Of a stretch of 64,000 nucleotides of DNA, positions 8,389 to 24,886 are shown piece after piece. The notes below the pieces were generated by a model that saw only the letters and a program-made list of their open reading frames with translations, had not been told where the DNA came from and made no database searches. The stretch's first letter is position 1. Each line of letters opens with the position of its first letter. Source of the DNA: Carboxydocella thermautotrophica (GTDB lineage: Bacteria; Bacillota; GCA-003054495; Carboxydocellales; Carboxydocellaceae). A program made the position numbers and the translations under genes. Where the stretch lies: the NCBI GenBank assembly GCA_003054495.1, contig CP028514.1, positions 608,501 to 672,500 on the forward strand. The letters are read 5' to 3'.

Positions 8389-8399
8389 GGGTTCATCAG

Positions 8400-8428
8400 C
8401 ACCTCTGTGCAGCAGAGGTGTTTTCTTT
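8400..8428 (+). terminator. Terminator of the amidase gene
   Basis: The arms CACCTCTG (8400-8407) and CAGAGGTG (8413-8420) enclose a 5-base loop and are followed by TTTTCTTTT. Confidence 0.88.
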
Positions 8429-8461
8429 TATTTTTGGTGCATATTATATTCAGAAAAAATT

Positions 8462-8520
8462 TTGCAGTTAGCAGGAAAAAGCCATAGACTTGTCGAATTG
8501 GACTAATACATTAGTCCAAT
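8462..8520 (+). promoter_or_regulatory. Promoter and palindromic GntR operator of the glutamate mutase operon
   Basis: TTGCAG (8462-8467) and TAGACT (8485-8490) with a 17-bp spacer form a plausible promoter. Directly downstream, at the expected transcription start, lies a perfect palindrome at 8497-8520. Its arms are ATTGGACTAAT and ATTAGTCCAAT with a 2-bp centre. The first gene behind it encodes a GntR-family regulator, so autoregulated repression of the whole operon is the simplest reading. The palindrome is seen directly; the binding partner is inferred. Confidence 0.78.
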
Positions 8521-8545
8521 GCTCCATTAGAAAGGTGGTGAAGGA

Positions 8546-9514
8546 ATGAACCTGAAAATTGAAATAGATCGCAAGTCCGGAGTACCGATCTACATACAGC
8601 TCAAAGAAGGAATCAAGCGTTTGATCGAGACCGGCTACTGGGAAGCGGGTCAGAAGATTCCCACCGAGCGGGAACTGGCGGAAATGCTCAATATCAGCCG
8701 CAATACCGTCAGCATGGCCTATAAAGAGCTGGAGGGGGAAGGGATTCTGGTTTCTACCCAGGGTCGGGGGACGTTTATTACCGATTCTGATGCTGTTCTG
8801 CGCCAGGAGGGGCGGAAGGAGCGGTTATTGCGGATAATCGATGTGGCTCTGGAAGAGGCGGCGGAAATGGGCTTTTCCCTGGATGAATTTGTGGCCATTG
8901 CCCATGTGCGGGCCCGGGAGAAGAAAGAGATGCTGGCCCGCATGAAAATCGCTTTTGTGGAATGTAACCGGGAACAGCTGGACTATTTTAGCCGGGAAAT
9001 GCATCTGGGTATGGGGATTACCATCCTGCCCATCCTGCTTGAGGATTTTCGCCGCCAGCCGGCAAAAATCAATCAGGTGCTGGAAAATGTCGACCTGGTG
9101 GTCTCTACCTTTTTTCATTTGCAGGAAGTCAAGCAACTGGTGGCCGACAAGAAAAAGACGGTGCTGGGCATCGCTCTGAATCCGGAGATTGAAACGATTG
9201 TCCGCATTGCCCGCTATCCCCAGGGTAGTAAACTGGCTATTGTTTGCCTCTCCGAGACTTTTGCGGCTAAAATCAGAGCGGCCCTGAAACAGGCCGGACT
9301 CAATCATTTGCAGCTGCTAACATCAATAAGTCATGACGAGGCTGAATTGACTGCTCTCCTGCAGGACGTGGATGCAGTGATTGTTTCTCCCAACCGGAAA
9401 AAGGAGATTCAGACACTGGCTCCCCGGCTGGATGTCATTGAAATGAGGTTTTTACCTGACCCTGAAACTATCAATGTAATAAAATCGGCTTTACTGGAGC
9501 TTAAAGATAAATAG
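8546..9514 (+). CDS. GntR-family transcriptional regulator of the glm operon
   Basis: The protein has 322 residues. The N-terminal winged-helix GntR domain (about 1-75) opens with GVPIYIQLKEGIKRLIETG. It includes the recognition region ERELAEMLNISRNTVSMAYK and the wing GRGTFIT. The C-terminal 230 residues form an alpha/beta domain, not the PLP-aminotransferase fold of MocR proteins. It may bind a metabolite, but I cannot name the ligand. The gene is first in a run of closely spaced genes for glutamate conversion, 11 bp ahead of murI, and a perfect palindrome sits in its promoter. Local control of the operon, including itself, is the likely role. Confidence 0.88.
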   Translation: MNLKIEIDRKSGVPIYIQLKEGIKRLIETGYWEAGQKIPTERELAEMLNISRNTVSMAYKELEGEGILVSTQGRGTFITDSDAVLRQEGRKERLLRIIDVALEEAAEMGFSLDEFVAIAHVRAREKKEMLARMKIAFVECNREQLDYFSREMHLGMGITILPILLEDFRRQPAKINQVLENVDLVVSTFFHLQEVKQLVADKKKTVLGIALNPEIETIVRIARYPQGSKLAIVCLSETFAAKIRAALKQAGLNHLQLLTSISHDEAELTALLQDVDAVIVSPNRKKEIQTLAPRLDVIEMRFLPDPETINVIKSALLELKDK

Positions 9515-9525
9515 AGGTGATTGTT

Positions 9526-10323
9526 GTGGATAAATTTGCCCCCATAGGTGTATTTGATTCTGGAGTGGGCGGCCTGACTGTTGTCAGGGAGCTGTTGAAA
9601 CATCTGCCAGCAGAAAATGTGATTTACTATGGAGATACCGCCCATGTCCCCTATGGGTCAAAAACCAGGGAACAGTTACTGGCTTATGGCCGCGGTATTA
9701 TGGAGTATCTGACTGCTGCCGGAGTAAAACTGGTGCTGGTGGCCTGTAATACCAGCTCTTCTTTGACCCTGGAGGCTCTGGCGGCGGAATTTCCTGTCCC
9801 GATGATCGGCATGATCAAACCCGGGGCCAAAGCGGCAGCAGCAGCCAGTAAAAACGGGAAAATTGGAGTGATTGCTACAGAAGCCACCACCCGCAGCCAG
9901 GCTTATCCGGCGGCGATCAAAGCTCTGCGGCCCGAGGCGGAGGTGCTGGGGCAGGCTTGCCCCAAATTCGTTCCGCTGGTGGAGAGTGGTCGCTTTGATA
10001 CAGAGGAAACGGTTGAGGCGGTGCGCGAATATGTCCTGCCCTTACTGGCAGAGGGCATAGATACTCTGGTTTATGGTTGTACCCACTATCCTTTCCTGGA
10101 GCCGGTGATTCGCCGGCTGGCAGACAGTAACCTCACCCTGGTGGATCCGGCCCAGGCAGTGGTGAGGGAAGCGGAGCAGCTGCTGGCCAGCAGAGGACTG
10201 GCAGCAGAAGGGGGGCAGGGTCAATATCGCTTTGTGGTCAGCGGGGATCCCCTGCAATTTCAGCGTGTAGGAAAAATTCTGCTGGGAGATATTATAAAAC
10301 AGGTGGAAAAGGCAGACAGGTAA
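9526..10323 (+). CDS. murI: Glutamate racemase
   Basis: The enzyme interconverts L- and D-glutamate without a cofactor, normally to supply D-Glu for peptidoglycan. Both catalytic cysteines are present (VACNTSSS and YGCTHYPF), as is the conserved [11 protein letters not shown] segment. The start chosen is the GTG at 9526, 6 bases after AGAGGTG; a GTG 9 bases earlier overlaps that site and is less likely. Its place between the operon regulator and the glutamate mutase genes is unusual. It may convert D-glutamate to the L-form used by the mutase, although it could also be the housekeeping wall enzyme. Confidence 0.95.
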
Positions 10324-10339
10324 CGGGGAGGATTCAGTC

Positions 10340-10789
10340 ATGGCAAGAAAAAACAATACCCTGGTTCTGGGGGTAATAGGTGCTGATGTTCACGCTATTG
10401 GCAACAAAATTCTGGACCACGCTCTGACCGCTGCAGGATTTAAAGTGGTAAACATAGGGGTAATGGCCACTCAGGAGGAGTTTATCAATGCCGCCATTGA
10501 GACCGATGCCGCCGCTATACTGGTGGGTTCGCTGTATGGGCATGGTGAGCTGGACTGCCGGGGGTTAAGGGACAAGTGTATTGAAGCCGGGATTGGGGAT
10601 ATCCTGCTTTATGCTGGTGGTAACCTGGTTGTAGGTAAACAGGATTTCGCTTCGGTGGAGGCGCGCTTCAAAACGATGGGTTTTAATCGCGTTTATCCAC
10701 CGGGCACATTGCCGGAAGTGGTAATTCGAGACCTCCGGCAGGACTTGGGGGAGGGAGAATCCAATGACAGCGAGGGCCCTCTTGGTTGA
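10340..10789 (+). CDS. glmS: Glutamate mutase small (sigma) subunit
   Basis: This is the cobalamin-binding component of adenosylcobalamin-dependent glutamate mutase, which rearranges L-glutamate to (2S,3S)-3-methylaspartate. The protein has 149 residues, slightly longer than the usual 137. The base-off cobalamin motif D-x-H-x2-G is clear in [15 protein letters not shown] at about residues 10-24, followed by the conserved [17 protein letters not shown] and YAGGNLVVG. The ribosome site GGGGAGG is good. The last 26 bp overlap glmL, so translation of the two genes is probably coupled. Confidence 0.95.
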
Positions 10790-12152
10790 TTTCGGCAGCA
10801 CTTACACCAAGGTAACGGCAGTAGACCTGGAAAAACGGTGTTTACTGGGAACGGCCAGAGCCTTTACTACCGTTCAGGAGGATATTAATATCGGTTTGAC
10901 CAGGGCCTGTCGCCAGCTGGGTGAAGAGTTGGGAGAAGATCCGCTGACTTACCCCCATAAACTGGGCTGTTCCAGTGCAGCCGGGGGTTTAAAGCTGGCG
11001 GCAATCGGACTGGTACGGGAATTGACAGTGGAAGCGGCCCGCCTGGCTGCCCTGGGGGCTGGAGCGCGGCTAACCCATGTGTTTTCCCGTTTTCTTACTC
11101 CGCAGGATGTGGAACAAATGGCTGCTACACCTCCTGATATTATCCTGCTGGCCGGAGGAACCGATGGAGGAAACAGGGAGACGATCATTGCCAATGCCCA
11201 CACTCTGGCTGTCGGCTCTTTACGGGTACCGGTGGTGGTTGCTGGCAATAAAGTGGCAGCGGCTCAGGTGGCGGAGATTCTCAGCCAGGCCGGTTTTCCC
11301 GTGCGGGTGACGGAAAATGTTATGCCAGAACTGAATCAGCTCAATGTGGAACCGGCCCGGGAAACCATCCGGGAAGTCTTTCTGGAACGGATTATTGCCG
11401 CTAAAGGGCTGGATAAGGCAGAAACATTGCTGGGGATTGTAATGCCTACCCCGGCAGCAGTATTACAAGGAGCGCGGCTGCTGGCAGAGGGGACTCCAGG
11501 CCAGAGGGGCTGGGGGGAGCTGCTGCTGGTGGACATTGGCGGGGCCACTACGGATGTGCATTCCATTGCCGAAGGGGGGCCCAGCAAGCCGGGAGTTAAC
11601 TGGAAGGGTTTACCGGAGCCTAAAGCCAAGCGCACAGTTGAGGGTGACCTGGGCATGCGTTATAGTGCCGAGGCCCTCTGGGAAGCAACCCCCAGGGCCC
11701 TGTTGCTAAAGCTATTTAGAGAAAAATGGCAGGAAGGTCAGGAATATGTACGGAAAGTACACCAGCAGCCTGATTATCTGCCGGTAAATGAACAGGAATG
11801 GGAGTGGGATACGCTGCTGGGCTACCTCTGTGCCCGCCTGGCCACTGAACGGCATGTGGGGCAGCTGGAAACAGTTTACACTCCTTTTGGGGCGACCTTT
11901 GTCCAGTATGGCAAGGATTTGACCCAAATCGGGCATGTCATCGGTACCGGCGGGGTGCTGGTCCATCATCCCCGGCCCCGGCGGATTCTGGAAGGAGTAC
12001 TGTTTGAACCGGAACAGCCCATGTTGTTGAAACCCATGCAACCGCGCCTGTGGTTGGATCAGGAGTATATTCTGGCAGCGATGGGTCTGCTGGCTGAAAT
12101 AGATGAAGAGGCGGCCATGACTATCATGACGGCCGGACTTAGAGAAATCTAG
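10764..12152 (+). CDS. glmL: Glutamate mutase reactivating factor GlmL (MutL)
   Basis: The protein has 462 residues and an actin/Hsp70-like ATPase fold. The phosphate 1 motif [14 protein letters not shown] is at residues 8-21, the second phosphate loop is [14 protein letters not shown], and the adenosine motif region is [11 protein letters not shown]. GlmL-type proteins sit between the two mutase subunit genes in known clusters. They are thought to use ATP to release damaged cobalamin from the mutase. The gene overlaps glmS by 26 bp and lies 11 bp before glmE. Annotation by name only as MutL should not be confused with the DNA mismatch repair protein. Confidence 0.93.
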
Positions 12153-12163
12153 GAGGGGTAAGT

Positions 12164-13615
12164 GTGGAACTTGTGAACAAAAAGCTGGACTTAGAACAGT
12201 TTTGGGCTGAACGGCAGGAAGTATTGCAGTCCTGGCCTACCGGACGCGGAGTAGATCTGGAAGAAGCTATTGCCTATCATAAACAGTTACCGGCCAGCAA
12301 GGTGATGGCCAAAAAACTGGCTCAGGGCAAGCGGGAAGGAATTACCTTTGCCCAGCCCCGGGCCGGAGTAGCTCTCTTGCATGAACACATAGAGCTGTTG
12401 CGTTATTTACAGGACGAAGGCGGGGCGGATTTCCTGCCCACCACCATTGATTCCTATACCCGGCAAAACCGCTATAAAGAGGCGGAAACAGGAATCGAGG
12501 AGTCCCGGGCAGCAGGTCGCTCCATGCTCAATGGCTTTCCGGCAGTCAATTACGGGGTAGATGCCTGCCGTAAAGTGGTGGAAGCAGTGAATGTGCCGGT
12601 ACAGGTTCGGCACGGTACTCCTGATGCCCGCTTGCTGGCGGAAATTACGCTGGCTGGAGGTTTTACCGATTTTGAGGGTGGCGGTATCAGCTATAATATT
12701 CCTTATTCCAAAGATATGCCGCTGGAAAAGTCTATCCGTTACTGGCAATATGTTGACCGCCTGGTGGGATATTATGAAGAAAATGGGGTCAGCATCAACC
12801 GGGAGCCTTTTGGGCCTTTAACCGGTACCCTGGTGCCTCCCAGTATATCCCATGCGGTGGCTATTATTGAAGCCTTACTGGCAGCCGAACAGGGGGTTAT
12901 GAACCTGACCCTGGGCTATGGACAATGTGGTAACCTCTATCAGGATGTAGCGGCCATAAGGACCCTGGCCGAACTGGCAGAGGAATATCTGAACCGCTTT
13001 GGGTACAGTGGTCGGCAAATCACCACGGTGTTCCACCAGTGGATGGGCGGCTTCCCGCAAGATGAAAGCAAAGCCTTTGGTGTCATCTCCTGGGGCGCTG
13101 TTACTGCCGCCCTGGCCAGAGTTAATAAGGTAATTGTTAAGACTCCCCATGAGGCGATGGGAATTCCGACCAGGGAAGCCAATGCCGCCGGGCTCAAGGC
13201 CACCAAACAGGTACTGAACATGCTCAAGGATCAGAGTTTGCCCCTGACCAGTGAGCTGCAGCTGGAAATGGAGATGATTCGCAAGGAAACCCGGGCCATC
13301 CTGGACAAGACCCTGGAACTGGGAGAGGGAGACTGGGCCGTTGGGGCCGTACGGGCCTTCAAGGCCGGTGTAATCGATGTACCTTTTGCCCCCAGTCGCC
13401 ACAATCTGGGCAAGATTTTGCCGGCCCGGGACAATCAGGGGGCGGTGCGTTTCCTGGATTTCGGCCAGTTGCCTTTTGATGCGGAAATCCGGGCCTTCCA
13501 TCAGGAGAAAATTGCTGAACGGGGCCGTAAGGAAAATCGCCAGCCCAGTTTCCAGATGGTAATCGATGATATCTATGCCATTGGTAAAGGCATGCTGGTA
13601 GGCCGGCCCAGATAG
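12164..13615 (+). CDS. glmE: Glutamate mutase epsilon (catalytic) subunit
   Basis: This is the TIM-barrel subunit of glutamate mutase that binds glutamate and, with GlmS, adenosylcobalamin. The length of 483 residues equals that of clostridial GlmE. Conserved parts include [14 protein letters not shown], the substrate region [14 protein letters not shown], the segment [15 protein letters not shown], and [18 protein letters not shown]. The start is a GTG behind AGGAGGGG. It forms a complete mutase with glmS and glmL just upstream, and the next gene encodes the enzyme that consumes its product. Confidence 0.96.
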
Positions 13616-13634
13616 AAAAGCGGAGGCGATGATA

Positions 13635-14882
13635 ATGAAGATAATAGATGTTGTTTTTTCGGCAGGATTAACCGGATTCTTCTTTGATGACCAGAAAGCC
13701 ATTAAAGCCGGAGCTCAGCCTGATGGCGGTACTTACCGGGGTCAACCTCTGACCCCGGGTTTTTCCGCTGTCCGGCAGCGGGGTGAATCCATTTCCATCA
13801 TGTTAATGCTGGAAGATGGACAGATTGCTTTTGGCGATTGCGCTGCGGTACAGTATTCGGGAGCAGGGGGCCGGGATCCCCTTTTTCTGGCCAGAGATTT
13901 TATTCCTCTGCTGGAGGAAGAGGTAAAGCCCCGGTTGCTGGGTCGGGAACTGACCGCTTTTCGGCCCCTGGCCCAGGAATTTGACCATTTTATCCGTCCC
14001 AATGGGGAGAGACTGCATACTGCTCTGCGCTATGGTATTACCCAGGCCCTGCTGGATGCCGTAGCCAGAGCCCACAGGGAGACCATGGCGGAAACCATCG
14101 CCCGGGAATATGGGACTCAACTGGTTAACGCTCCTGTACCGATCTTTTGTCAGACGGGGGATGAAAGGCATAACAATGCCGATAAGGCCATTGTAAAAAG
14201 GGCTGATGTGCTCCCGCATGGACTGATCAATAACGTGGAGACCAAACTGGGCAAAAATGGAGAGCTGTTACTGGAATATGTAGAGTGGCTGCGGAAACGG
14301 GTAGAGGAATTAGGCCAACCCGGTTACCGTCCTGTTTTACATATTGATGTTTATGGCACCATTGGCCTGGCTTTTGGCCATGATACCAAACGGATGGCAG
14401 CTTACCTCAAGGAACTGGAGGCGGCAGCACGGCCCTTGCAGCTGCGCATTGAAGGGCCGATGGATATGGGCAATAAACCGGACCAGATGCGGGCCCTGAA
14501 GGACCTGAAACAGGAACTGACTGACACAGGCTGTACGGTGGAAATTGTGGCCGATGAATGGTGTAACACCCTGGAGGATATTATAGAATTCACCGATCAC
14601 CAGTCAGCCCATATGGTGCAAATCAAAACACCGGACCTGGGAGGCATCAATAATACCATCGAAGCGGTCCTTTATGCCAAAGCCAGAGGTATGGGAGCCT
14701 ATCTGGGCGGTACCTGTAATGAAACTGACCGTTCGGCTCAGGTCTGTGTGCACATCGCCCTGGCTACCAATCCCGATCAGATGCTGGCCAAACCCGGAAT
14801 GGGAGTGGATGAAGGCCTGATGGTGGTGTATAATGAAATGGCCAGAACCCTGGCTATATTGAAAATGAAAGGGAAAATTTAG
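13635..14882 (+). CDS. mal: Methylaspartate ammonia-lyase
   Basis: The enzyme removes ammonia from (2S,3S)-3-methylaspartate to give mesaconate. It belongs to the enolase superfamily, with an N-terminal cap and a C-terminal barrel. The protein has about 415 residues, as expected. The general-base lysine region KTPDLGGINNTIEAVLYAKA and the metal ligands in VLHIDVYG, IEGPMDMG and ADEWCN are visible. The start at 13635 is 8 bases behind GGAGG; an ATG 6 bases earlier is too close. It sits 19 bp after glmE and completes the conversion of glutamate to mesaconate. Confidence 0.95.
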   Translation: MKIIDVVFSAGLTGFFFDDQKAIKAGAQPDGGTYRGQPLTPGFSAVRQRGESISIMLMLEDGQIAFGDCAAVQYSGAGGRDPLFLARDFIPLLEEEVKPRLLGRELTAFRPLAQEFDHFIRPNGERLHTALRYGITQALLDAVARAHRETMAETIAREYGTQLVNAPVPIFCQTGDERHNNADKAIVKRADVLPHGLINNVETKLGKNGELLLEYVEWLRKRVEELGQPGYRPVLHIDVYGTIGLAFGHDTKRMAAYLKELEAAARPLQLRIEGPMDMGNKPDQMRALKDLKQELTDTGCTVEIVADEWCNTLEDIIEFTDHQSAHMVQIKTPDLGGINNTIEAVLYAKARGMGAYLGGTCNETDRSAQVCVHIALATNPDQMLAKPGMGVDEGLMVVYNEMARTLAILKMKGKI

Positions 14883-14913
14883 GTCAAGAATTTCGTGTAA
14901 AGGAGGAACGCCT

Positions 14914-15894
14914 GTGGGCAAGGTGGGCATAACCACCACGGTGCCGGTGGAAATAATTTACGCAGCAGGAGAGATACCAGTGGATCTCAACAATATCTTC
15001 ATTACCAGCCCTGATCCCATGCAACTGGTGGAAGAGGCAGAAGTAGCCGGTTATCCCCGCAATTTGTGTGGCTGGATCAAGGGCATCTACAGCACCGTTC
15101 TGGCCAACCGGGAAATTGACCGGGTGATTGCTGTGACCCAGGGGGATTGTTCCAATACCCACGCTCTGATGGAGACCCTGCAGGTCCAGGGGATTAAAAC
15201 CATACCTTTCGCCTTTCCCTACGATCGGGATCGGGACATGCTCAAACTGCAAATGGAAAAACTGATGGAGGCCCTGGGGGGAGTAACCTGGGACCAGGTT
15301 AATGCTACCAAACAGCGGCTGGACCGCATTCGCCGCAAGGTGGCAGAAATTGACCGTCTGACCTGGGAAGGCCAGCAGGTGAGCGGGTTTGAAAACCATC
15401 TTTTCCAGGTGTCCTGCAGTGACTTTAATGGGGATCCCGATACTTTTGAACAGCAAGTGGAAGCATTCCTGGCGGAAGTCCAGCACCACAAGGTGATTGA
15501 AGAGGATGTGCGCCTGGGCTATATCGGTGTACCCCCCATTTTCTCCGATATCTATCAATTTGTAGAGGAGCTGGGAGCCCGGGTGGTCTATAATGAGGTG
15601 CAAAGGCAGTTTGCCATGCCTTTTGCCACTGAGGATATCGTGGAGCAGTACCTGCTCTATACCTATCCCTATGATATTTTTGCAAGGCTGGAGGATATCA
15701 GTCGGGAAGTGGAACGGCGCAATCTGGATGGGATTATCCATTACACTCAGAGTTTTTGCTTCCGTCAGATTGAGGATATAATCATCCGGGAGAAGCTGGA
15801 TATCCCTGTTTTGACTCTGGAAGGAGACAAACCGGGGCGGCTGGATGCGCGCAGTAAAATGCGGCTGGAGTCCTTTATCGAGATGTTGAGGTGA
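14914..15894 (+). CDS. 2-hydroxyacyl-CoA dehydratase-like iron-sulfur protein (double-cubane type candidate)
   Basis: The protein has 326 residues and belongs to the HgdB/BcrB/DCCP family. It starts with the family pattern TTTVPVEIIYAAGEIPVDLN. Cys52 (NLCGW), Cys79 (GDCSN) and Cys282 (SFCFR) match the positions that hold the [4Fe-4S] or double-cubane cluster; Cys168 is additional. True 2-hydroxyacyl-CoA dehydratases need two different subunits of this family. Here only one is present, next to one activator gene, as in the homodimeric double-cubane cluster proteins described from Carboxydothermus. It is shorter than typical family members. The start is a GTG behind AAGGAGG. The substrate is unknown; a reductive step on a product of the upstream pathway is only a guess. 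Confidence 0.8.
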   Translation: MGKVGITTTVPVEIIYAAGEIPVDLNNIFITSPDPMQLVEEAEVAGYPRNLCGWIKGIYSTVLANREIDRVIAVTQGDCSNTHALMETLQVQGIKTIPFAFPYDRDRDMLKLQMEKLMEALGGVTWDQVNATKQRLDRIRRKVAEIDRLTWEGQQVSGFENHLFQVSCSDFNGDPDTFEQQVEAFLAEVQHHKVIEEDVRLGYIGVPPIFSDIYQFVEELGARVVYNEVQRQFAMPFATEDIVEQYLLYTYPYDIFARLEDISREVERRNLDGIIHYTQSFCFRQIEDIIIREKLDIPVLTLEGDKPGRLDARSKMRLESFIEMLR

Positions 15895-16706
15895 AATCGA
15901 TGTTACTGGGACTGGATTTAGGCAGCCGGCAGGCTAAACTGGTGCTGGGCCCGCGGCAGGCAGGCTGGCAACCGGGGGAGCCTCTGCCGGAGTTGAGTTT
16001 TCACCGCTACGATACTATCCTCTTTTATCGCCAGTACGGCCGTAAAGTGGCAGAAGACCTGGCGGTGGATTTCGCTGCTCTGGGTCTGCCGCAGTTTGAA
16101 GCCATTGTTTCCACCGGCTATGGGCGCAATACCGTAAAAATAGCTGGTGGTAAAACGATTCCGGAGCTGAAAGCCCACATGCTGGGAGCAATGGCTCAGA
16201 CCGGGTTGCAGGATTTTACCCTGCTGGATTTAGGAGGCCAGGATAGTAAAGTCATCGCTGTCAGCCGGGGGAAAATGCGGGATTTTGTCACCAATGACAA
16301 GTGTGCGGCCAGCTCCGGCCGCTATCTGGAAAACATGGCAGCGGTTCTGGGCATTAGTCTGGAGGAACTGAGTCAGTATGCCGATAACCCGGTGGAGTTG
16401 AGTTCTACCTGTGCTGTTTTCGGGGAATCGGAATTGATTGGCCGGATTGTTGAGGGCTATTCCGTTGCCGAACTGGCGGCAGGAGTGAACTATACCATTT
16501 TCCGGCGGGTCCAGCCTATGCTAAAACCTTTGTTAGGGAAAGGTCCACTGGTTTTCACCGGCGGGGTGGCCTTTAACCGGGCCCTCGTTACTATTCTGGA
16601 GCGGGAGCTGGGGGTAGAGGTGGTTATTCCGCCGGAACCGCAGATGAATGGCGCTATTGGTTGCTGGGTGGAAGCCCAATTACAGACAGAGAAGGAGGTT
16701 AACTGA
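15891..16706 (+). CDS. ATP-dependent activator/reductase of the 2-hydroxyacyl-CoA dehydratase-like protein
   Basis: The protein has 271 residues and the ASKHA ATPase fold of HgdC/BadF-type activators. The phosphate loops LGLDLGSRQAKLVL and LLDLGGQDSKVIAV are present. Two cysteines, Cys138 (NDKCAASSGRYLE) and Cys174 (SSTCAVFGESE), are the expected ligands of the [4Fe-4S] cluster shared by the homodimer. Such proteins hydrolyse ATP to push a low-potential electron into their partner. The gene overlaps the partner gene by 4 bp (GTGA), so the two are probably made in balance. An ATG 9 bases downstream is an alternative start. Confidence 0.9.
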   Translation: MKSMLLGLDLGSRQAKLVLGPRQAGWQPGEPLPELSFHRYDTILFYRQYGRKVAEDLAVDFAALGLPQFEAIVSTGYGRNTVKIAGGKTIPELKAHMLGAMAQTGLQDFTLLDLGGQDSKVIAVSRGKMRDFVTNDKCAASSGRYLENMAAVLGISLEELSQYADNPVELSSTCAVFGESELIGRIVEGYSVAELAAGVNYTIFRRVQPMLKPLLGKGPLVFTGGVAFNRALVTILERELGVEVVIPPEPQMNGAIGCWVEAQLQTEKEVN

Positions 16707-17461
16707 TGAAGTTGACAGTGCTGGGCTGCTGGGGCCCCTATCCCCGGGCTGGTGGTGCCTGTTCCGGCTATCTGGTTCGCTCCGGGGACACAGCGATTCT
16801 GCTGGATTGTGGCAATGGCGTTTTCGGCCGTTTGCGGGAACATATGGACTTCTGGCAGCTGACGGCAGTAATCATTACCCACTGGCATCCTGACCACTGG
16901 GCTGATTTGCATTGTATAAGGCATGCTATCGCAGGTGCCATTCGGGAAGGGAGGCGGCCAGGACCGCTACCAGTGTATGCACCCGTCGAACCGGCGCAGT
17001 TGTTTGAGCAGTTTGTTGCCTACCAGGAAGCCTTGCAGCTGATAGCAATTCCGGCTGCCGGAGGGCAGGCCAGGGCCGGCCAGCTGGAACTGAAATTTTT
17101 CCCGGTCAGCCACAGTTTACCTGCTTATGCCGTGCGGCTGGAAGCTGAAGGCAAAAGCCTGGTCTATACCGGGGATGCCGCATACAGCGAGGAATTGGCT
17201 GAATTCAGCCGGGAATGCGGACTGTTGCTGGCTGAAGCCAGTCTGCAGGTAGAGCATGAAAGCAAAGGTCAGGAACTGGGCCATCTTAGCTCCCGCCAGG
17301 CCGGACAGCTGGCCCGGCAGGCTGGGGCAGGCTTCCTGCTGCTTACCCATCTCTGGCCGGAATTCAATGCTGCCCTGTCACTGAAAGAGGCCAGAGAAGT
17401 CTTTAGTGGCCGTCTGGATCTGGCCCGGGAAGGGCGGAGCTGGACGGTGGAGGGGAGGTAA
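16706..17461 (+). CDS. MBL-fold metallohydrolase
   Basis: This metallo-beta-lactamase-fold hydrolase has 251 residues and resembles the RNase Z/YhfI group. The metal site motif H-x-H-x-D-H is seen in THWHPDHWADL, and further ligands are in FPVSHSLPAYAV, YTGDAAYS and LLTHLWPEF. The start codon overlaps the activator stop by one base. Position inside the glutamate operon suggests a hydrolytic step on a pathway intermediate such as a thioester or lactone, but the family is too broad to name a substrate. Confidence 0.85.
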   Translation: MKLTVLGCWGPYPRAGGACSGYLVRSGDTAILLDCGNGVFGRLREHMDFWQLTAVIITHWHPDHWADLHCIRHAIAGAIREGRRPGPLPVYAPVEPAQLFEQFVAYQEALQLIAIPAAGGQARAGQLELKFFPVSHSLPAYAVRLEAEGKSLVYTGDAAYSEELAEFSRECGLLLAEASLQVEHESKGQELGHLSSRQAGQLARQAGAGFLLLTHLWPEFNAALSLKEAREVFSGRLDLAREGRSWTVEGR

Positions 17462-17471
17462 GGTAAGGAAG

Positions 17472-18845
17472 ATGAAGGAGATGCGCATCTTGTCTCCTAC
17501 TGCTATTTTAGGCTATGGCTTTCCGGAGGAAAGTTTTCGCCGCGGGTTGGAGTATCGGCCCCACTTGATCGCTGTGGATGCCGGTTCCACTGATCCGGGA
17601 CCCTATTATCTTGGGGCAGGGGTATCCTTTACTGACCGGCGGGCGGTTAAGCGTGACCTGAAGCTGATGCTGACAGCCGGGCTGGCAGCCGGGGTTCCAG
17701 TGGTGGTGGGCACTGCGGGCGGTTCCGGAGCCACTCCCCATCTGGAGTGGACAGTGGATATCGTCCGGGAAATTGCCCGCGAAGAAGGTTTGCGTTTTCG
17801 GCTGGCAGTAATCGGTGCTGAACAGAGCCGGGAACAGGTTCAGACCTGGCTGGCAGCAGGGAAAATAACTCCTTTGCATCCGGCTCCTCCCTTAACTGCA
17901 GAAGCGGTGGCAGCCAGCAGCCATATAGTGGCACAGATGGGAACAGAGCCTTTCATTGCAGCCCTGGCAGCAGGGGCCCAGGTGATCATTGCTGGACGGG
18001 CCTATGACCCGGCGGTGTTTGCTGCTCTGGCCATCAAGGAGGGGTTTGATCCCGGCCTGGCCATCCATCTGGGTAAAATTCTGGAGTGTGCAGCCATCGC
18101 AGCTGTGCCGGGCAGTGGCAGTGACTGCATGTTCGGCTGGTTGCGGGAAGAACACTTTGAGGTAGAACCCTTGAGCCCGGAACGGCGCTGCAGCGTCACT
18201 TCTGTTGCGGCTCATACCCTGTACGAAAAAACCGATCCCTATCGCTTGCCAGGGCCAGGAGGAATACTGGATTTGACAGCTACCCGCTTCACCCAGGTCG
18301 GTGAACGGCGGGTACGGGTTACAGGGAGCAAACATAACCCGACTCCTTTGGCCTTCAAGCTGGAAGGGGCAAGGCAAATGGGCTACCGCACCGTTAGTAT
18401 TGCCGGGGCCCGGGATCCCATTTTCATTGCGCGGCTGGATGAAATCCTGGCTGGAGTGCGGCAGCGGGTAAAGGATAATTTCCGCGATATACCCGGCAGT
18501 GAGTATTTCCTGCACTTTAATATCTATGGCCGCAATGGGGTAATGGGACCACTGGAGCCCACACCTACCATCACCTCCCATGAAATCGGAATAGTTATCG
18601 AAGCTGTAGCGCCAACCCAGGAGCTGGCCAATACCATTTGCGGTTTTGCCCGTTCCACCCTGTTGCATTACGGTTATGAAGGGCGGATTTCCACTGCCGG
18701 CAATCTGGCTTTTCCGTATAGCCCTTCCGATTTCAAGGCGGGTCCGGTTTACCAGTTCTCCCTCTACCATTTGGTGCAGGATGTAAGCTGGCAGGAACTG
18801 TTTCCCATTCACTATGAGGAAATCGGGGGTGGCGGCAATGGCTAA
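17472..18845 (+). CDS. AtuA-family (DUF1446) protein
   Basis: The protein has about 457 residues. It matches the AtuA/DUF1446 family named after a protein needed for acyclic terpene use in Pseudomonas. Recognisable parts are AVDAGSTDPGPYYLG near the N-terminus, VVVGTAGGSG, IIAGRAYDPAVFAAL, and VTGSKHNPTPLAFKLEGA. The biochemical activity of the family is not established to my knowledge. The next gene encodes its usual small partner, DUF4387. The ATG used lies 10 bp after the MBL gene. The ribosome site is GGGAGGTAAGG, somewhat far away, so the start is not fully certain. Given its neighbours, it is a candidate for a step after mesaconate. Confidence 0.82.
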   Translation: MKEMRILSPTAILGYGFPEESFRRGLEYRPHLIAVDAGSTDPGPYYLGAGVSFTDRRAVKRDLKLMLTAGLAAGVPVVVGTAGGSGATPHLEWTVDIVREIAREEGLRFRLAVIGAEQSREQVQTWLAAGKITPLHPAPPLTAEAVAASSHIVAQMGTEPFIAALAAGAQVIIAGRAYDPAVFAALAIKEGFDPGLAIHLGKILECAAIAAVPGSGSDCMFGWLREEHFEVEPLSPERRCSVTSVAAHTLYEKTDPYRLPGPGGILDLTATRFTQVGERRVRVTGSKHNPTPLAFKLEGARQMGYRTVSIAGARDPIFIARLDEILAGVRQRVKDNFRDIPGSEYFLHFNIYGRNGVMGPLEPTPTITSHEIGIVIEAVAPTQELANTICGFARSTLLHYGYEGRISTAGNLAFPYSPSDFKAGPVYQFSLYHLVQDVSWQELFPIHYEEIGGGGNG

Positions 18846-19161
18846 ATACCGGTTGACGGAGCTGGCCCGGGTGATCAGGAGCAAAAACTCCGGCCCCTAT
18901 GAACTGACCCTGGATATTATGTTCAAGGATGAGGAAACCTATCAGAAAGTGAAAGCATCCCGATTTTTTACTCCGGAGCTCTTCGCTCGCCTGTACGGGG
19001 TTAAACAGGAGGATATCATCGCCTTTGTAGAATTTGACCCGGCAGCAGCCATCAAATGCACCCTCAAGCGCCCCCTGGCTTCGGGGGACCTGGGAGAAAC
19101 CGATGTCTACGGGGCCCAGCAGCATGGGCCTTTGCTGGAATTGGAACTGAATCTGGACTAG
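18838..19161 (+). CDS. DUF4387 (AtuA-related) small subunit
   Basis: This small protein of 107 residues belongs to DUF4387, which is found either as a separate gene after AtuA-type proteins or as their C-terminal domain. Typical segments are LARVIRSKNSGPYELTLD and the end LASGDLGETDVYGAQQH. The ATG at 18838 overlaps the AtuA-like gene by 8 bp, which suggests that the two products form one complex. It is the last gene of the long operon that begins with the GntR regulator. No catalytic role is known to me. Confidence 0.82.
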   Translation: MAKYRLTELARVIRSKNSGPYELTLDIMFKDEETYQKVKASRFFTPELFARLYGVKQEDIIAFVEFDPAAAIKCTLKRPLASGDLGETDVYGAQQHGPLLELELNLD

Positions 19162-19199
19162 AAAAACAAGCCCTCAGGTAGCCTGGCTAACCTGAGGGC
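19161..19199 (-). terminator. Terminator of the multiheme cytochrome gene
   Basis: The arms GCCCTCAGGT (19170-19179) and ACCTGAGGGC (19190-19199) pair. Read on the minus strand the hairpin is followed by TTGTTTTTC, so it ends the cytochrome transcript. In the plus direction the T-run is poor, yet it may also stop the glm operon. Confidence 0.8.
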
Positions 19200-19209
19200 G
19201 AATTACTAT

Positions 19210-20994
19210 TTATCTTTTACCAAAAAAGTAGATGGGTTCAGGGAGGCCGTAAACTGACATTCCCTTATCCAGTCTGTCTTGACCCTTTTTGAAAGTATGG
19301 GTGCGTACATAGAGGTTTTCAGCCGTTTTGCCAGTACCTGGCATTATCTTCTTCCAGAGGTCGGAAGGAGCACCGGTATGGCACTTGGCGCAGAGATCTT
19401 CCGGCTTGGCTCTTAAGCTGCCGGCCACTTTATCGCGCTTATGCGGGTTATGACAGGTGGTACAGGTAATATTCATCATAGTGGTTTGATAATGTTTGGA
19501 CTGAATAAAACCTTGATATTGTTGATGGTGCTTGTTCTCTTCATATACTCCGGCTGTGACGGACTTATCATCCACGATAAAGAGGTTTTGCAAATCTCCG
19601 GTGTAAGGAGCACTGGCTGGATCTTCAGGTTGAACACCGGGGATAATTACTTCTTCGGGATACCACTTTGTCCAATCATCCCAGGGTTTCCAGGAAGTAT
19701 TAAGGGTAGGAGCGGGGAAATCTTCCCTGGGTTTGCCCTGTCTGGATTTATACTTATCGTTTTCCAGTCTGATGTGGCAGTAGCCGCAGATTCTGGCCTG
19801 TTCCTGTTTTGATGCTTTGGCCGGGTTGAAAATATCAGCTTTATTTGCGGTTACGACGTGGGCGGAACCAGGTCCATGGCAGGCTTCACAGCCAACATTC
19901 AGTTCAGCCCAGGCTACTTTGGTAGCGCTGGGATTAGCCTCATCATAGCTTAAGATTTTATAACCGGTGGAATGGCAGGTGATACATTGAGTGTCCCAGT
20001 CATTTGCATTTCCATAATTTTCCCATTTCCTGGTAACGGCGTTAAATTGTTTATTCATCAGCTGGTAACCGCCGGTTTGCGGGTTTTTAACCAGATAGCG
20101 CTGTTTCCAGCGGGAGCCAATGACCATGACCACATCATCAAAAGTGAAGGGGGTTTTAGTGGCATTCCCGATAGTCGGACCCTGGTTGCCAGCGTCGTCA
20201 TAAGTCCAGCTTAACACAGCGTCGCGCAGGATACCTTGTTCTTTGGGTTGAATCATTTTGCTATGGTAGGTTTCCTGCCAGCCTTGATAATAAGCGGTAT
20301 GACACTGACCACAGCGTTTGGAACCGACGTATTGCCGGGCAGCCAGCGGAACCGGTTTAGGAGGTTGAGGCTTTACTGCAACTGTTCTTAATTTGGCAAT
20401 TTGCTGTAAAAGATTTTCAGCCTCATTCTTTTTCATGATTGACTGGAGATTGAGGGTGTTGCCCTGTACCAGCCCCTTTTTGACAAAAAGGGCAACTGTG
20501 TATTTCATTTTTGCTGGTACTTTTCCTCTATCCTTATACTTTTTTAATAAGTTATCAGCTTCTTTGCCCAGTTTTTGCGCTTCCTGGGTCCAGCCCAGAG
20601 CATTTGCCAGGTAGAGATAAGCTTCACCCCGGGTAAGAGATGAATTTGGGCTGTTTACTTTCACTTTTACTTTCAGGATTTGATTTGCGCTGGCAGCGAA
20701 ATCTTTTTCTTTATAAGCTGCTACAGTTGTTTTAGGTTGATTTGAAGTAGTTGATTTGGTTTGCGAGGTTGTTCCGGTTTTCACGTTCGTTGGCTGGCTA
20801 ACAATTTTGTACCCGTTGGCTTTAAATTTTTGGCCGAAAGCATTCAGGGCTGGCAACTTACTGAGGTCATGGCAGTCAGCGCATGTCTTGCCGGTTGTTG
20901 AGGAAAACTTGGTACTGCCTGAAGCTCCGCTGAAGGCCAGCAAGGATGAGAGAACAAGGAAGAGTCCGATTAGAGCCGCTTTTTTGTTATGCAT
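19210..20994 (-). CDS. Seven-heme c-type cytochrome with SLH-like segment
   Basis: This exported protein has 594 residues and a signal peptide (about 1-27). Seven C-x2-C-H heme sites start at Cys38, 228, 337, 369, 403, 511 and 535. The six C-terminal hemes fall in a cytochrome c554-like region with motifs CEACHGPGSAH and CTTCHNPHKRD. Residues about 115-205, between heme 1 and heme 2, resemble S-layer homology repeats (SLTRGEAYLYLANALGW, then VKKGLVQGN). This suggests attachment to the cell wall. A role in electron transfer across the envelope to external acceptors, such as metal oxides, fits. It is alone in its transcription unit, with AGGAGTGGTG upstream of the ATG. Confidence 0.88.
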   Translation of the reverse strand: MHNKKAALIGLFLVLSSLLAFSGASGSTKFSSTTGKTCADCHDLSKLPALNAFGQKFKANGYKIVSQPTNVKTGTTSQTKSTTSNQPKTTVAAYKEKDFAASANQILKVKVKVNSPNSSLTRGEAYLYLANALGWTQEAQKLGKEADNLLKKYKDRGKVPAKMKYTVALFVKKGLVQGNTLNLQSIMKKNEAENLLQQIAKLRTVAVKPQPPKPVPLAARQYVGSKRCGQCHTAYYQGWQETYHSKMIQPKEQGILRDAVLSWTYDDAGNQGPTIGNATKTPFTFDDVVMVIGSRWKQRYLVKNPQTGGYQLMNKQFNAVTRKWENYGNANDWDTQCITCHSTGYKILSYDEANPSATKVAWAELNVGCEACHGPGSAHVVTANKADIFNPAKASKQEQARICGYCHIRLENDKYKSRQGKPREDFPAPTLNTSWKPWDDWTKWYPEEVIIPGVQPEDPASAPYTGDLQNLFIVDDKSVTAGVYEENKHHQQYQGFIQSKHYQTTMMNITCTTCHNPHKRDKVAGSLRAKPEDLCAKCHTGAPSDLWKKIMPGTGKTAENLYVRTHTFKKGQDRLDKGMSVYGLPEPIYFFGKR

Positions 20995-21183
20995 AACACC
21001 ACTCCTCTCTGTTAATTTTTTGACAATTTTATTATTACAGACAATAGTAGCCAGGTCAATGCTTTTTACAGAAGTTAGAATTGAAAGAAAAAGTCGACAT
21101 AATATTCATATGCTCACATTTATTTGTTTTTGCTTCTTTAATATAATATTATTAAGAAAATGAAGAGTATGAAGGTGAAAGGA

Positions 21184-21597
21184 ATGGAAAGGGAAAAACT
21201 CGGCCGCTACCTGGCAGCAAAACCAAATATTCTATTTGCCTTTCTTTTTGGCTCCTGGGCCCGCGGGGATGCGCGGGAGGACAGTGATGTGGATATTGCT
21301 GTATATCTAAAAGATCGGGATTACGATATACTGGAATATTTGGACTGGAAAAGGGACCTGGAGGAGATTTGCGGTCGTACAGTGGATTTGGCTATCCTGA
21401 ATGAGGCCACTCCTTTACTCAAATATCAGGTCTATCTGGATGGAGTATTGTTGTTCAGCAAGGACGATATCCTGGCCAGTAATTTCCTGGTCAGAGCCTT
21501 GTTCGAATATGAGGATATACGGCCTTATCTGGAATTGACATACAAACGCATGATAGATCGGGTACGTCAGGAGGTGAAAGGAAATGGTGAGACGTGA
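21184..21597 (+). CDS. mntA: MntA-type nucleotidyltransferase antitoxin
   Basis: This minimal nucleotidyltransferase has about 137 residues. The catalytic pattern GSWARGDAREDSDVDIAV (GS-x10-D-x-D) is intact, so it should be active. In MntA-HepT systems, the MntA antitoxin transfers AMP units to a tyrosine of the HEPN toxin and so switches it off. The start chosen is the ATG after AAGGTGAAAGG; in-frame ATGs 15 and 24 bases upstream are possible. A TATAAT sits at 21142-21147. The 3' end overlaps hepT by 14 bp, typical of such pairs. Confidence 0.88.
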   Translation: MEREKLGRYLAAKPNILFAFLFGSWARGDAREDSDVDIAVYLKDRDYDILEYLDWKRDLEEICGRTVDLAILNEATPLLKYQVYLDGVLLFSKDDILASNFLVRALFEYEDIRPYLELTYKRMIDRVRQEVKGNGET

Positions 21598-22015
21598 AGT
21601 GTTAGCGAAACGGCTGGAGCAACTTAATTTGTCAATCGAAAAAATCAATAGATATCGACATCTGACAGAAGAAGAATTTTTAGCCGACGAAATTGCGCAG
21701 GATGTGGTTGAGTACAACTTGTTTATTGCCATCAATATGATTGTGGACATGGCTACGCACATAGTTGTTGATAACAATATGGGTCGCCCGCAAAAAATGG
21801 CGGACGCTTTTGATATTTTGTACCGTGAAAAACTTATTAGTAAACAGCAAAAAGATATATTTCAAAAGATGGTAGGATTTCGTAATATTCTTTCTCATGA
21901 GTATTTAAAAATAGACAAAAAAATTGTATTTGCGATAATGAAAAAGCATCTTGATGATTTCAAAAATTTTATTTTAATGGTAAATGAAAATTTTATGCCC
22001 AAACAGGAGCTCTAA
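21584..22015 (+). CDS. hepT: HepT-type HEPN toxin
   Basis: The protein has 143 residues and is an all-helical HEPN (DUF86) protein. The RNase and modification motif R-x4-H-x-Y is present as RNILSHEY at about residues 102-109. HepT toxins cleave RNA, including tRNA in studied cases; AMP addition at the motif tyrosine by MntA neutralises them. The coding sequence is clearly more A+T-rich than the surrounding genes, which fits a mobile defence-type module. It directly follows mntA with an overlap, and the next gene starts 14 bp later. Confidence 0.88.
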   Translation: MVRREVLAKRLEQLNLSIEKINRYRHLTEEEFLADEIAQDVVEYNLFIAINMIVDMATHIVVDNNMGRPQKMADAFDILYREKLISKQQKDIFQKMVGFRNILSHEYLKIDKKIVFAIMKKHLDDFKNFILMVNENFMPKQEL

Positions 22016-22029
22016 GGGAGTGACCACAA

Positions 22030-22995
22030 ATGGCTGTTCTGCCCATGTATGAATACTTGATGTATGCCGCCTATTTTGCCCCCCGGGGCAAACAGCGCCT
22101 GCTGAACCTGGGCAACAATATCGGGCAGCGGTACTTGAGCCCGGAGGACCGCATTATAGGTTTGATCGGGGATGCCGGGGCTGGCAAATCCCTCTTGATT
22201 CGCGGCATGTTTCCTGGCCTGGAACTGACCAATGATGATGATGGCATCAATGTGCGGCCTTTGCCTCTGATCAGGGACTGGGAGCAAGGGCATTTTCGCA
22301 CCCGAACCTATCATCTGGATGTTCGGTTTGAGACTGCTTTTACCCAGCTCTGGCAAATTGCTGAAGCGGTGAAAGCGGCAGTACGGGCCGGTCGGCGGGT
22401 GGTAATCGAGCATTTTGATCTGCTGTATCAGGCACTGGGGTTTAATGCGGAAATCCTCATCGGCGTGGGAGAGGAAGTAATAGTAACCCGGCCGGGGGTT
22501 TTCGGCCCCTATCCCCAGGATATAGCCAAAATCGTTTTCCGTTCACTGAAATACCGGAAGATGGCCCACAGCGCCGAGGACCTGGTGGCTATGGTGCTGG
22601 AGGAAATGGGGCTCAAAAAACCGGAAGTACATAGTGATATCAAACACGGCTTTGTCCTGGAATTTGCGGAAAAACCCAATATCGACCTGGCAGAGGTGGA
22701 AAGAAAAGTTAATGAACTGATTGCCAAAGACCTGCCAATTTGTTATCATGGTGAAGATCACATCAAGGTAGGAGAGGAAGTGCGGGAATGTACCGGGCCG
22801 CGCATTCACATGAAACGCACCGGGGAAATTCAGGGTTTCCATTTATTGAAGGAATTTAGATGGGACCCTGTGCGCAAGCTGTATGTAGTAGCAGGTCTGG
22901 TGGGACGGCGGGAAGAAAATCCCTTTGCCCGCACCTACCTGGACGAGTTTATGATCATTCCCTTAGAAGAAGCGCGGGAATGGGATAAAGGATAG
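22030..22995 (+). CDS. P-loop protein with tRNA_SAD-like C-terminal domain
   Basis: The protein has 321 residues. A Walker A motif [13 protein letters not shown] lies at about residues 47-59, and the N-terminal half looks like a small kinase or GTPase-type P-loop domain. The C-terminal part (about 195-300, from [12 protein letters not shown] to [14 protein letters not shown]) resembles the second additional domain of alanyl- and threonyl-tRNA synthetases. That domain edits mischarged tRNA in those enzymes. The combination occurs in Clostridia but has no known function that I can state. It lies 10 bp upstream of the rph start in a run with rdgB, so a nucleotide or RNA quality-control role is conceivable. 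Confidence 0.68.
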
Positions 22996-23005
22996 GAGGA
23001 TGTCC

Positions 23006-23743
23006 ATGGAACAATTGCTCTGGCAGCGGGTGGATGGCAGAAAACCCGATGATTTGCGACCACTGAAAATCACCCGCAACTATATCAAACATGCGGAAGG
23101 TTCAGTCCTGGTAGAACTGGGAGATACCAGGGTGATTTGTACCTGTACAGTAGAGGATAAAGTACCTCCCTTTCAGAAGGGAACAGGCAAAGGCTGGATT
23201 ACAGCCGAGTATGCCATGTTGCCGCGGGCTACTCATCAGCGCAGCCAGCGGGAAGCGGTCAAAGGCCGCATCGGCGGGCGGACTTATGAGATCCAGCGCC
23301 TGATCGGCCGGGCCCTGCGAGCAGTGGTGGATCTGGATTTACTGGGTGAACGGACCCTGACCCTGGATTGTGATGTGATTCAGGCCGATGGGGGAACCAG
23401 GACCGCTTCTATCACCGGTGCCTTTATCGCCCTGGCTGATGCCCTGCAGGGTCTGGTAGAGGCAGGCACTTTGCCTGGTCTGCCTTTGCGGGATTATCTG
23501 GCAGCCGTCAGTGTGGGCAAGGTGGAAGATCGGCTGCTGCTGGATTTGTGCTATGAAGAGGACAGCCGGGCCCAGGTGGATATGAATGTGGTAATGACCG
23601 GCCAGGGCTTACTGGTGGAAGTACAGGGCACAGCGGAGGATACCGCTTTTCCCCGGGAGGAATTGGACGCACTGCTGGATTTAGCCAGCAAGGGGATTGC
23701 GGAAATGGTGGCTTACCAAAAACAACTGGTGGTGTTAGGATAG
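23006..23743 (+). CDS. rph: Ribonuclease PH
   Basis: This phosphorolytic 3'-5' exoribonuclease trims the 3' end of tRNA precursors and takes part in RNA decay. It has about 245 residues. The motifs RPDDLRPL-like [24 protein letters not shown]-like [16 protein letters not shown], the [20 protein letters not shown] segment, and the phosphate-site [15 protein letters not shown] are all conserved. The ATG at 23006 is 6 bases after AGGAGG; an ATG directly adjacent to the site is unlikely to be used. The stop overlaps the rdgB start by one base, an arrangement common in Firmicutes. Confidence 0.96.
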
Positions 23744-24351
23744 TGGGTAAACTGGTGATCGCAACGGGAAACAAGGGAAAACTGGAGGAAATCAAGGCTT
23801 TGCTGGCAGGGACTGACTGGGAAATCAAAAGCCTGACCGATTTTCCCCATTTGCCGGAAGTGGTGGAAGATGAGTTGACTTTTGAGGGCAATGCTCGCAA
23901 AAAGGCCCTGGAAATAGCCAGGGCTACAGGTTGCTGGGCTCTGGCCGATGATTCCGGGCTGGAGGTGGCAGCTCTGGGGGGAGCGCCCGGCGTGCATTCG
24001 GCCCGCTATGCCGGTGAGGTTAAGGATGATGCCCGCAATAATGCCAAATTACTGGAAGAACTGGCGGGAGTGCCTTTTTCTGACCGGGAAGCCCGTTTTC
24101 GTTGTGTGATGGCTTTAGCCCATCCGGAACGCGGGGTAGTGGCAGTTACCGAGGGCAGCTGTCCTGGCATTATCCTCTGTGAAGCCAGAGGAGAAGGGGG
24201 CTTTGGTTATGATCCCCTCTTCTACCTGCCGGAAAAAGGCAAGACCATGGCTGAGCTGAGCCCGGATGAAAAAAATGCCGTCAGCCACCGGGGCCAGGCT
24301 TTGCGCAAAATGATAAGTGAACTGGAACGACTGGCCAGGGCAGGTGAGTAA
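23743..24351 (+). CDS. rdgB: XTP/dITP diphosphatase
   Basis: This Ham1/RdgB house-cleaning pyrophosphatase hydrolyses dITP, ITP and XTP so that deaminated purines are not built into nucleic acids. The protein has 202 residues. The N-terminal ATGNKGKLEEI, the ALADDSGLEVAALGGAPGVH signature and the C-terminal SHRGQAL segment match the family. The GTG start overlaps the last base of the rph stop codon. The gene is followed 3 bp later by a phosphodiesterase gene, so rph, rdgB and the latter form one operon. Confidence 0.96.
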   Translation: MGKLVIATGNKGKLEEIKALLAGTDWEIKSLTDFPHLPEVVEDELTFEGNARKKALEIARATGCWALADDSGLEVAALGGAPGVHSARYAGEVKDDARNNAKLLEELAGVPFSDREARFRCVMALAHPERGVVAVTEGSCPGIILCEARGEGGFGYDPLFYLPEKGKTMAELSPDEKNAVSHRGQALRKMISELERLARAGE

Positions 24352-24353
24352 TT

Positions 24354-24830
24354 ATGAAAATCCTGGTTTTCAGTGATACCCATGGTCGCTGGCAGTTATG
24401 CCGTGAGGTACTGGACAGGGAAGGCAGGGCTGATGCTATCCTGCATGCCGGGGATCATTATGATGATGCGATTGCCCTCAGCCAGGTAATCGAGGTGCCG
24501 GTGTACGGAGTGAAGGGAAACTGTGATTGGGCAGGGCCGGAGGAGAAAAAGCTGGTCCTTGCTGATGTACCCCTTTTGCTCCTGCATGGTCATCGTTATG
24601 GAGCCAAGTCAGGGCTGAGCTCCCTTTATTACAAGGGCCAGGAGGAAGGGGTAAGGATTGTAGTATTTGGCCACAGCCATATACCGGTTCAGGAGGATGA
24701 CGGGCAAGTTTTGCTGTTCAACCCCGGCAGCCTGGCCAGACCGCGCACGGGTTCTCCTTATGGCAGCTATGGTCGCCTCTGGCTGGAGCAGGACGGGATA
24801 CGAGTTGAAATTGTCGAATGGCGGCCCTGA
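24354..24830 (+). CDS. YfcE/MJ0936-family metallophosphoesterase
   Basis: This metal-dependent phosphoesterase has 158 residues. The metal ligands are in VFSDTHGRWQ, LHAGDHYDD, VKGNCDW, LLHGHRYG and FGHSHIP, the standard order for this family. Related enzymes cleave phosphodiesters in test assays; the natural substrate is unknown. It is the last gene of the rph-rdgB operon. An ATG start 3 bp after rdgB indicates coupling. Confidence 0.9.
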   Translation: MKILVFSDTHGRWQLCREVLDREGRADAILHAGDHYDDAIALSQVIEVPVYGVKGNCDWAGPEEKKLVLADVPLLLLHGHRYGAKSGLSSLYYKGQEEGVRIVVFGHSHIPVQEDDGQVLLFNPGSLARPRTGSPYGSYGRLWLEQDGIRVEIVEWRP

Positions 24831-24857
24831 GATTTTTCTGAAATTTATTTGCGTATC

Positions 24858-24886
24858 TTGACAGAATCATGTAAAATAAATATATG
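24858..24886 (+). promoter_or_regulatory. Promoter of tig
   Basis: A consensus TTGACA (24858-24863) is followed after 17 bp by TATATG (24881-24886). It lies 54 bp upstream of the trigger factor start and just after the phosphoesterase gene. Confidence 0.65.

Follow-up and report, generated by a model that had tools for sequence, protein, structure and literature searches.

A single-subunit HGD-D protein and its ATPase activator as a predicted preQ0 reductase of anaerobic bacteria

Introduction

In queuosine synthesis, the nitrile group of preQ0 (7-cyano-7-deazaguanine) is reduced to the aminomethyl group of preQ1. According to the account in PMC5372742, this step is catalysed by QueF, a T-fold enzyme that uses NADPH and activates the nitrile as a covalent cysteine thioimide. 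QueG and QueH are also reductive enzymes of queuosine synthesis, but they act at a later step, on tRNA, and are unrelated to the proteins considered here. As described in PMC5372724, QueH provides a precedent of non-orthologous replacement in this pathway.

Among the proteins with the closest folds to the one analysed here are those of the 2-hydroxyacyl-CoA dehydratases (HadBC; 3o3m/3o3n), of the class I benzoyl-CoA reductase BzdNO and of the double-cubane cluster proteins (DCCP and DCCP-R; 6eno, 7yyl). In the description given by PMC11971306, the [8Fe-9S] double cubane of BzdN is held by Cys36/73/100/263/293/327, and the [4Fe-4S] cluster of BzdO by Cys95/128/380 together with a water. The latter cluster is thought to derive from the loss of one sub-cluster, the space of which is taken by Trp46 and the ring of the substrate. 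The same source describes DCCP as a protein of 421-422 residues with a double cubane per monomer and an unclear physiological role, and activators of this kind as carrying one [4Fe-4S] cluster between two subunits and transferring electrons with ATP hydrolysis.

Here we describe a gene pair from Carboxydocella thermautotrophica that encodes a short HGD-D subunit and an activator, and we analyse its distribution, genome neighbourhood and conserved residues. The window is the whole stretch of DNA analysed, with a length of 64,000 nucleotides.

Results and Discussion

The gene pair and its place in the window

The HGD-D gene (Table 1) starts with GTG behind an AAGGAGG-like ribosome site. The only family matched by its product is PF06050, and this match covers the full length of the profile (E 7.9e-42, 144.5 bits with a cut-off of 28.4; residues 8-325 on profile positions 2-342 of 342). 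The GTG start codon of the activator gene overlaps the TGA stop codon of the HGD-D gene, with an ATG at 15900 as an alternative start, and the activator passes the cut-off of the TIGR00241 model CoA_E_activ (185.5 versus 125.4 bits). A 2-hydroxyacyl-CoA dehydratase has two different HGD-D subunits, while no gene for a partner subunit is found beside the HGD-D gene at the window locus. No CoA-transferase occurs among the identified neighbours of the pair.

The gene order upstream of the pair comprises a GntR regulator, murI, mutS, mutL, mutE and the gene for methylaspartate ammonia-lyase (MAL). Downstream, there are the gene for a metallo-beta-lactamase-fold protein, AtuA and DUF4387. The metallo-beta-lactamase-fold gene recurs beside the pair in other genomes and may be functionally linked to it.

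Table 1 Features of the gene pair and its neighbour in the window. Positions are those of the whole stretch.
Feature	Position	Strand	Remarks
HGD-D subunit gene, proposed catalytic preQ0 reductase subunit, 326 aa	14914..15894	+	PF06050 match
Thr7 codon, at distal-cubane cysteine position (DCCP C77)	14932..14934	+	T in 13/13 DCCP-aligned family rows, 110/111 rows
Cys52 codon, proposed [4Fe-4S] ligand	15067..15069	+	Cys in 111/111 rows; aligns with DCCP C115
Cys79 codon, proposed [4Fe-4S] ligand	15148..15150	+	Cys in 111/111 rows; aligns with DCCP C145
Cys282 codon, proposed [4Fe-4S] ligand	15757..15759	+	Cys in 111/111 rows; aligns with DCCP C375
Activator, BadF/HgdC-type ATPase, proposed ATP-driven electron donor	15891..16706	+	TIGR00241
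Metallo-beta-lactamase-fold hydrolase, recurrent neighbour, not counted as enzyme part	16706..17461	+	fold named from sequence; 41/68 loci

Distribution of the family and variation of its loci

The orthologous family is sharply bounded. A sample of 398 genomes of the phylum contains 68 with a member, counting matches with an E-value below 1e-80, which have at least 48% identity; in G235 the match is cut by the contig end. Another 17 genomes (for a tally of 85) have only remote matches and were excluded from the count. All further matches in the 398 genomes are either remote, with at most 41% identity, or fragments from genomes that had been counted. Because relatives of this identity occur in so many genomes, and because the AlphaFold2 model of the HGD-D protein reaches a pLDDT of 92.1 and a pTM of 0.90, the observation is far beyond chance. 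Desulfotomaculum relatives, Desulfosporosinus, Sporomusa, Pelotomaculum and Thermincola are among the taxa that carry the family. At least 567 relatives are among the matches listed. Viral or phage copies of the family were not found, and Ilyobacter was the sole match in a scan of plasmids.

An activator gene is adjacent in 61 of the 68 loci. Other frequent neighbours are rph (49 loci), murI (41) and the metallo-beta-lactamase-fold gene, followed by mutE (24), MAL (18) and class I fumarase-like genes (14). The usual site of the pair is a chromosomal murI-rph-rdgB locus, which glutamate-mutase genes enter in a minority of cases. Seven loci lie outside murI/rph/mut surroundings (G034, G035, G044, G320, G117, G298 and G358).

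Among the seven loci without an adjacent activator, two are at contig ends and one is split by an insertion (G302; L152 and L153), where about 13 kb of inserted DNA separates the HGD-D gene from the activator and two more HGD-D fragments are found near the latter. In G045, G299, G363 and G321, the HGD-D gene has no adjacent activator, and another activator of the genome may be shared. There are also loci (L035, L115, L112) where both genes are retained with other genes between them: serine-dehydratase-like and nitroreductase-like genes and a GntR-ABC set in L035, two other genes in L112. In the Sporomusa/Pelosinus group (L056, L064, L065, L073 and relatives), the pair is surrounded by genes which, named from their sequences, are a CofE-like gene (F420-0:gamma-glutamyl ligase) and hydantoinase/oxoprolinase-like and histone-deacetylase-like genes.

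Co-occurrence with the queuosine pathway

QueC makes preQ0, and a preQ0 reductase other than QueF is expected in genomes that make preQ0 and have no QueF. The HGD-D family shows this pattern. Of these 398 genomes, 111 have QueF (PF14489) and 68 have the HGD-D family, but none has both, where 19 would be expected (one-sided Fisher test, 1.7e-11, uncorrected for kinship). The signal is milder when genomes are collapsed to taxonomic families, 30 of which hold the HGD-D family and 44 QueF; five hold both, in different genomes, with 9.4 expected (P 0.037).

Among the 68 family-positive genomes, 61 have QueC. It is also present in 8 of 12 QueF-positive controls hand-picked from the 111, but in only one of 80 genomes with neither (a partial match of 61 bits), these 80 having been hand-picked, mostly from a random 150 of 219. 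When only matches above 100 bits are considered, the numbers are 60 of 68 and 0 of 80. Seven family-positive genomes gave no QueC match and an eighth (G048) gave a weak partial one. QueA is present in 66 of the 68. In the window genome, QueC, QueA and Tgt are present; QueF and QueH were not found.

We consider it very likely that the pair is an oxygen-sensitive, ATP-driven preQ0 reductase which replaces QueF in queuosine synthesis. The later reductive step is occupied in most of the family-positive genomes by one of the known enzymes. QueH is present in 34 of the 68, without association (p 0.89). Of the 34 QueH-negative genomes, to which the window genome belongs, 27 have a QueG match over the cut-off and four gave no QueG match. 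Since this step is filled in most genomes, the conversion of preQ0 to preQ1 stands out as the systematic gap.

Queuosine operons

In four of the seven loci outside the usual surroundings, the pair heads a run of queuosine genes, the names of which were confirmed by profile. Downstream of the HGD-D and activator genes, the order is queC-queD-queE in G320, G117 and G298 and queD-queE-folE-queC in G358. In two further cases, the pair lies next to a transporter gene: the one in G034 is for a queuosine-precursor transporter (TIGR00697, 190 bits), and the one in G035 is for QueT. No queuosine gene was seen beside the pair in G044, the seventh stand-alone locus. An equivalent arrangement exists in another phylum: in the fusobacterium Ilyobacter polytropus, the RefSeq annotation gives, all in the same direction, a 2-hydroxyacyl-CoA dehydratase, an acyl-CoA dehydratase activase, QueD, QueE, FolE and QueC. 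The first two have the accessions WP_013388700.1 and WP_013388699.1. As annotated, the run is a preQ1 operon in which the pair stands where queF would be.

Among the eight QueC-positive QueF controls, queF lies less than 1 kb from queC in four (G168, G056, G023 and G194). This is the place that the HGD-D and activator genes take in the family operons. The pair thus resembles QueF in the proposed step, in its place in the pathway and, where the genes are clustered, in its place beside queC-D-E. Sequence and fold are unrelated, however: QueF is a T-fold protein, whereas the pair consists of an Fe-S protein of the HGD-D type and its ATPase activator, and PF14489 is not matched. It must be added that only 6 of the 68 loci have queuosine genes next to the pair, that these six belong to two lineages of the tree, and that most loci are situated between murI and rph. 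A preQ1 riboswitch was found neither in positions 6000-25000 of the window nor in eight loci nor upstream of the Ilyobacter operon.

A different role within queuosine metabolism is improbable. The pair might act in salvage of queuine or queuosine, or might reduce preQ0 that is already bound to tRNA. In favour of such a role, G034 and G035 have a transporter next to the pair and gave no QueC match. However, the frequency of QueC in family-positive genomes makes their own synthesis of preQ0 probable, and the association is with queC/D/E, which act upstream of Tgt. The absence of a QueC match in G034 and G035 is also expected for a preQ0 reductase if preQ0 is imported and then reduced.

Even less probable is a third epoxyqueuosine reductase which would replace QueG and QueH and open the epoxide by low-potential electrons. 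The queuosine operons and the transporters beside the pair would fit such a role as well, as would the four family-positive genomes with neither QueG nor QueH and the QueG-like ORF of the window genome, which stays below the cut-off (161 versus 200 bits). However, QueH is no rarer in genomes with the family, QueG accounts for most of the others, and the zero overlap with QueF would be left unexplained. We have rejected this role on the QueH and QueG counts.

Fold, cysteines and cluster type

The AlphaFold2 model has the BCR/HAD fold with two alpha/beta domains. Alignment with VIA-align gave BzdN as a match with Z 32.4 (313 residues, rmsd 2.4), DCCP with Z 32.3 and 24% identity, and HadC with Z 31.4. 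HadBC and BzdNO share with the pair not only the fold but also the ATP-driven activator, and HadB and BzdO the three-cysteine [4Fe-4S] pattern; they are heterodimers acting on CoA esters, whereas there is one gene here. DCCP shares the fold, the single catalytic subunit and the one activator, but is longer, carries a double cubane per monomer and belongs to a separate clade.

The HGD-D protein has four cysteines, three of which (C52, C79 and C282) are invariant in the family. In the activator, Cys138 and Cys174 are present in 98 of 98 rows. In the sets of 111 HGD-D rows and 98 activator rows, some genomes are represented by two rows, and sequences beyond a set length range were not included. 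When aligned to the DCCP of the same genome, the three invariant cysteines of the HGD-D protein correspond to those of the proximal cubane. Each of the 13 family rows that were aligned to DCCP has T7 at one of the three distal-cubane positions and a gap at the other two. The invariance of the two activator cysteines fits one [4Fe-4S] cluster shared between two activator subunits.

A previous sequence-only reading of this DNA had described a single dehydratase-like subunit with three cluster cysteines, unusually short, with an overlapping activator gene. All of this is borne out, including membership in the BCR/HAD (HGD-D) family, a probably homodimeric protein with its own ATP-driven activator and a suitability for low-potential reduction of small molecules. 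The same reading had proposed a double-cubane cluster, and here the data point the other way. The three invariant cysteines compare with six needed for a double cubane, and the protein scores 55.5 bits with the NCBIfam double-cubane model NF040772, far below the cut-off of 350. In a tree of 33 rows, the family forms a single clade (support 100/100) with a long stem (2.69), and the DCCPs are in a separate group.

In addition, the same genome encodes a true DCCP elsewhere (L025 7733-9007, minus strand; G000:C1 at about 2.396 Mb). It has 424 residues and an adjacent activator, and reaches 581 bits to the solved DCCP chains 7yyl/6eno. The genome's remaining HGD-D proteins form an HGD-D-like pair of 336 and 371 residues, followed by its own activator in a different arrangement (L026 5860-8939).

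We have thus rejected the double cubane on cysteine count, profile score, tree and the separate DCCP. There is hardly any probability left for a DCCP that would act on a substrate from the glutamate/methylaspartate pathway, such as mesaconate. Its case is made by DCCP being among the closest folds, by the activator, and by the glutamate mutase and MAL genes that adjoin in the window and at a part of the other loci; against it, in addition to the points just given, 37 of the 68 genomes with the family have no mutE.

The preQ0 reductase would probably represent a third architecture within the HGD-D fold, a homodimer in which each subunit has one [4Fe-4S] cluster on three cysteines. Further invariant polar residues of the family are E13, D24, N26, N27, E43, N227, E228, Q230, R231, H276 and Q279, which perhaps line the substrate space. 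One of these, Asn26, is aligned with Glu in 7 of 20 other HGD-D rows and is found approximately at the place of BzdO Glu65, as judged by alignment and counting from Trp46 only.

Proposed mechanism and significance

It is probable, although with somewhat less confidence than for the preQ0 reductase function as such, that the pair represents a second, chemically unrelated nitrile reductase. This would be a homodimeric [4Fe-4S] enzyme of the dehydratase/benzoyl-CoA reductase family with an ATP-hydrolysing activator, which acts on the preQ0 nitrile at an open iron in four nitrogenase-like single-electron steps and supplies queuosine in many anaerobes. The activator homodimer, with one [4Fe-4S] cluster on Cys138 and Cys174 of each subunit, would accept electrons from ferredoxin and, with hydrolysis of ATP, pass them one at a time to the HGD-D homodimer. 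In the latter, each subunit would carry one [4Fe-4S] cluster on its three invariant cysteines, with the fourth iron site free.

A BzdO-like architecture would leave room for the 7-deazaguanine ring, and preQ0 is predicted to occupy the space of the second cubane of DCCP, with the nitrile at or near the open iron. Since the three proposed cluster ligands are its only invariant cysteines, the family, unlike QueF, has no invariant one to spare for a thioimide, and we therefore propose binding of the nitrile at the open iron. Successive transfers of four electrons and four protons would then convert the nitrile to the aminomethyl group of preQ1, Tgt would put preQ1 into tRNA, and QueA followed by QueG or QueH would complete queuosine.

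In the open-licence literature, with few subscription journals and preprints covered, we found no link of queuosine to this dehydratase family, to its activators or to double cubanes. Within the literature searched, we treat the proposal as new: a known enzyme family would include a new functional variant, which replaces QueF without being orthologous to it. If it is correct, there would be a second biological nitrile reductase with a chemistry that differs from QueF. A branch of the activator-driven dehydratase family would have a physiological role, which its DCCP relatives still do not have. It would also close the queuosine gap in many anaerobes, the taxa named above and others, and would correct the label "2-hydroxyacyl-CoA dehydratase", as used in Ilyobacter, for maybe hundreds of proteins.

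Glutamate mutase genes and other neighbours

The sequence-only reading had taken the glutamate operon as a guide to the substrate. The operon is real in the window, but mutE is not found beside 44 of the 68 loci, and we have rejected mesaconate or methylaspartate as a guide, the neighbours being optional. The distribution of the family and its stand-alone operons point to queuosine instead. An enzyme of the methylaspartate pathway or otherwise linked to glutamate (acting for example on mesaconate or citramalate), without any role in queuosine synthesis, is the least probable reading: Desulfosporosinus operons do hold mutS-L-E, MAL and, named from sequence, class I fumarase/mesaconase-like or citrate-lyase-like genes around the pair, but such genes are missing from most family loci, mutE is present in 55 genomes without the family, and neither the exclusivity with QueF nor the co-occurrence with QueC would be predicted.

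The adjacency itself does not look like chance. Where a genome has both the family and mutE, the two are neighbours in 24 of 31 cases (in the window at 10340-14882), and this is not explained by the queuosine reading. Glutamate mutase genes occur beside the family without MAL in G049, G088 and G122, and mutE alone is beside it in G039, G076, G081 and G116.

Two further features were noticed in the window. A 594-residue protein encoded at 19210-20994 on the minus strand has seven CxxCH motifs and is likely to be a multihaem cytochrome c. At 21160-22015 on the plus strand, there are two genes that overlap and look like those for an MNT nucleotidyltransferase and a HEPN protein, a putative toxin-antitoxin-like pair.
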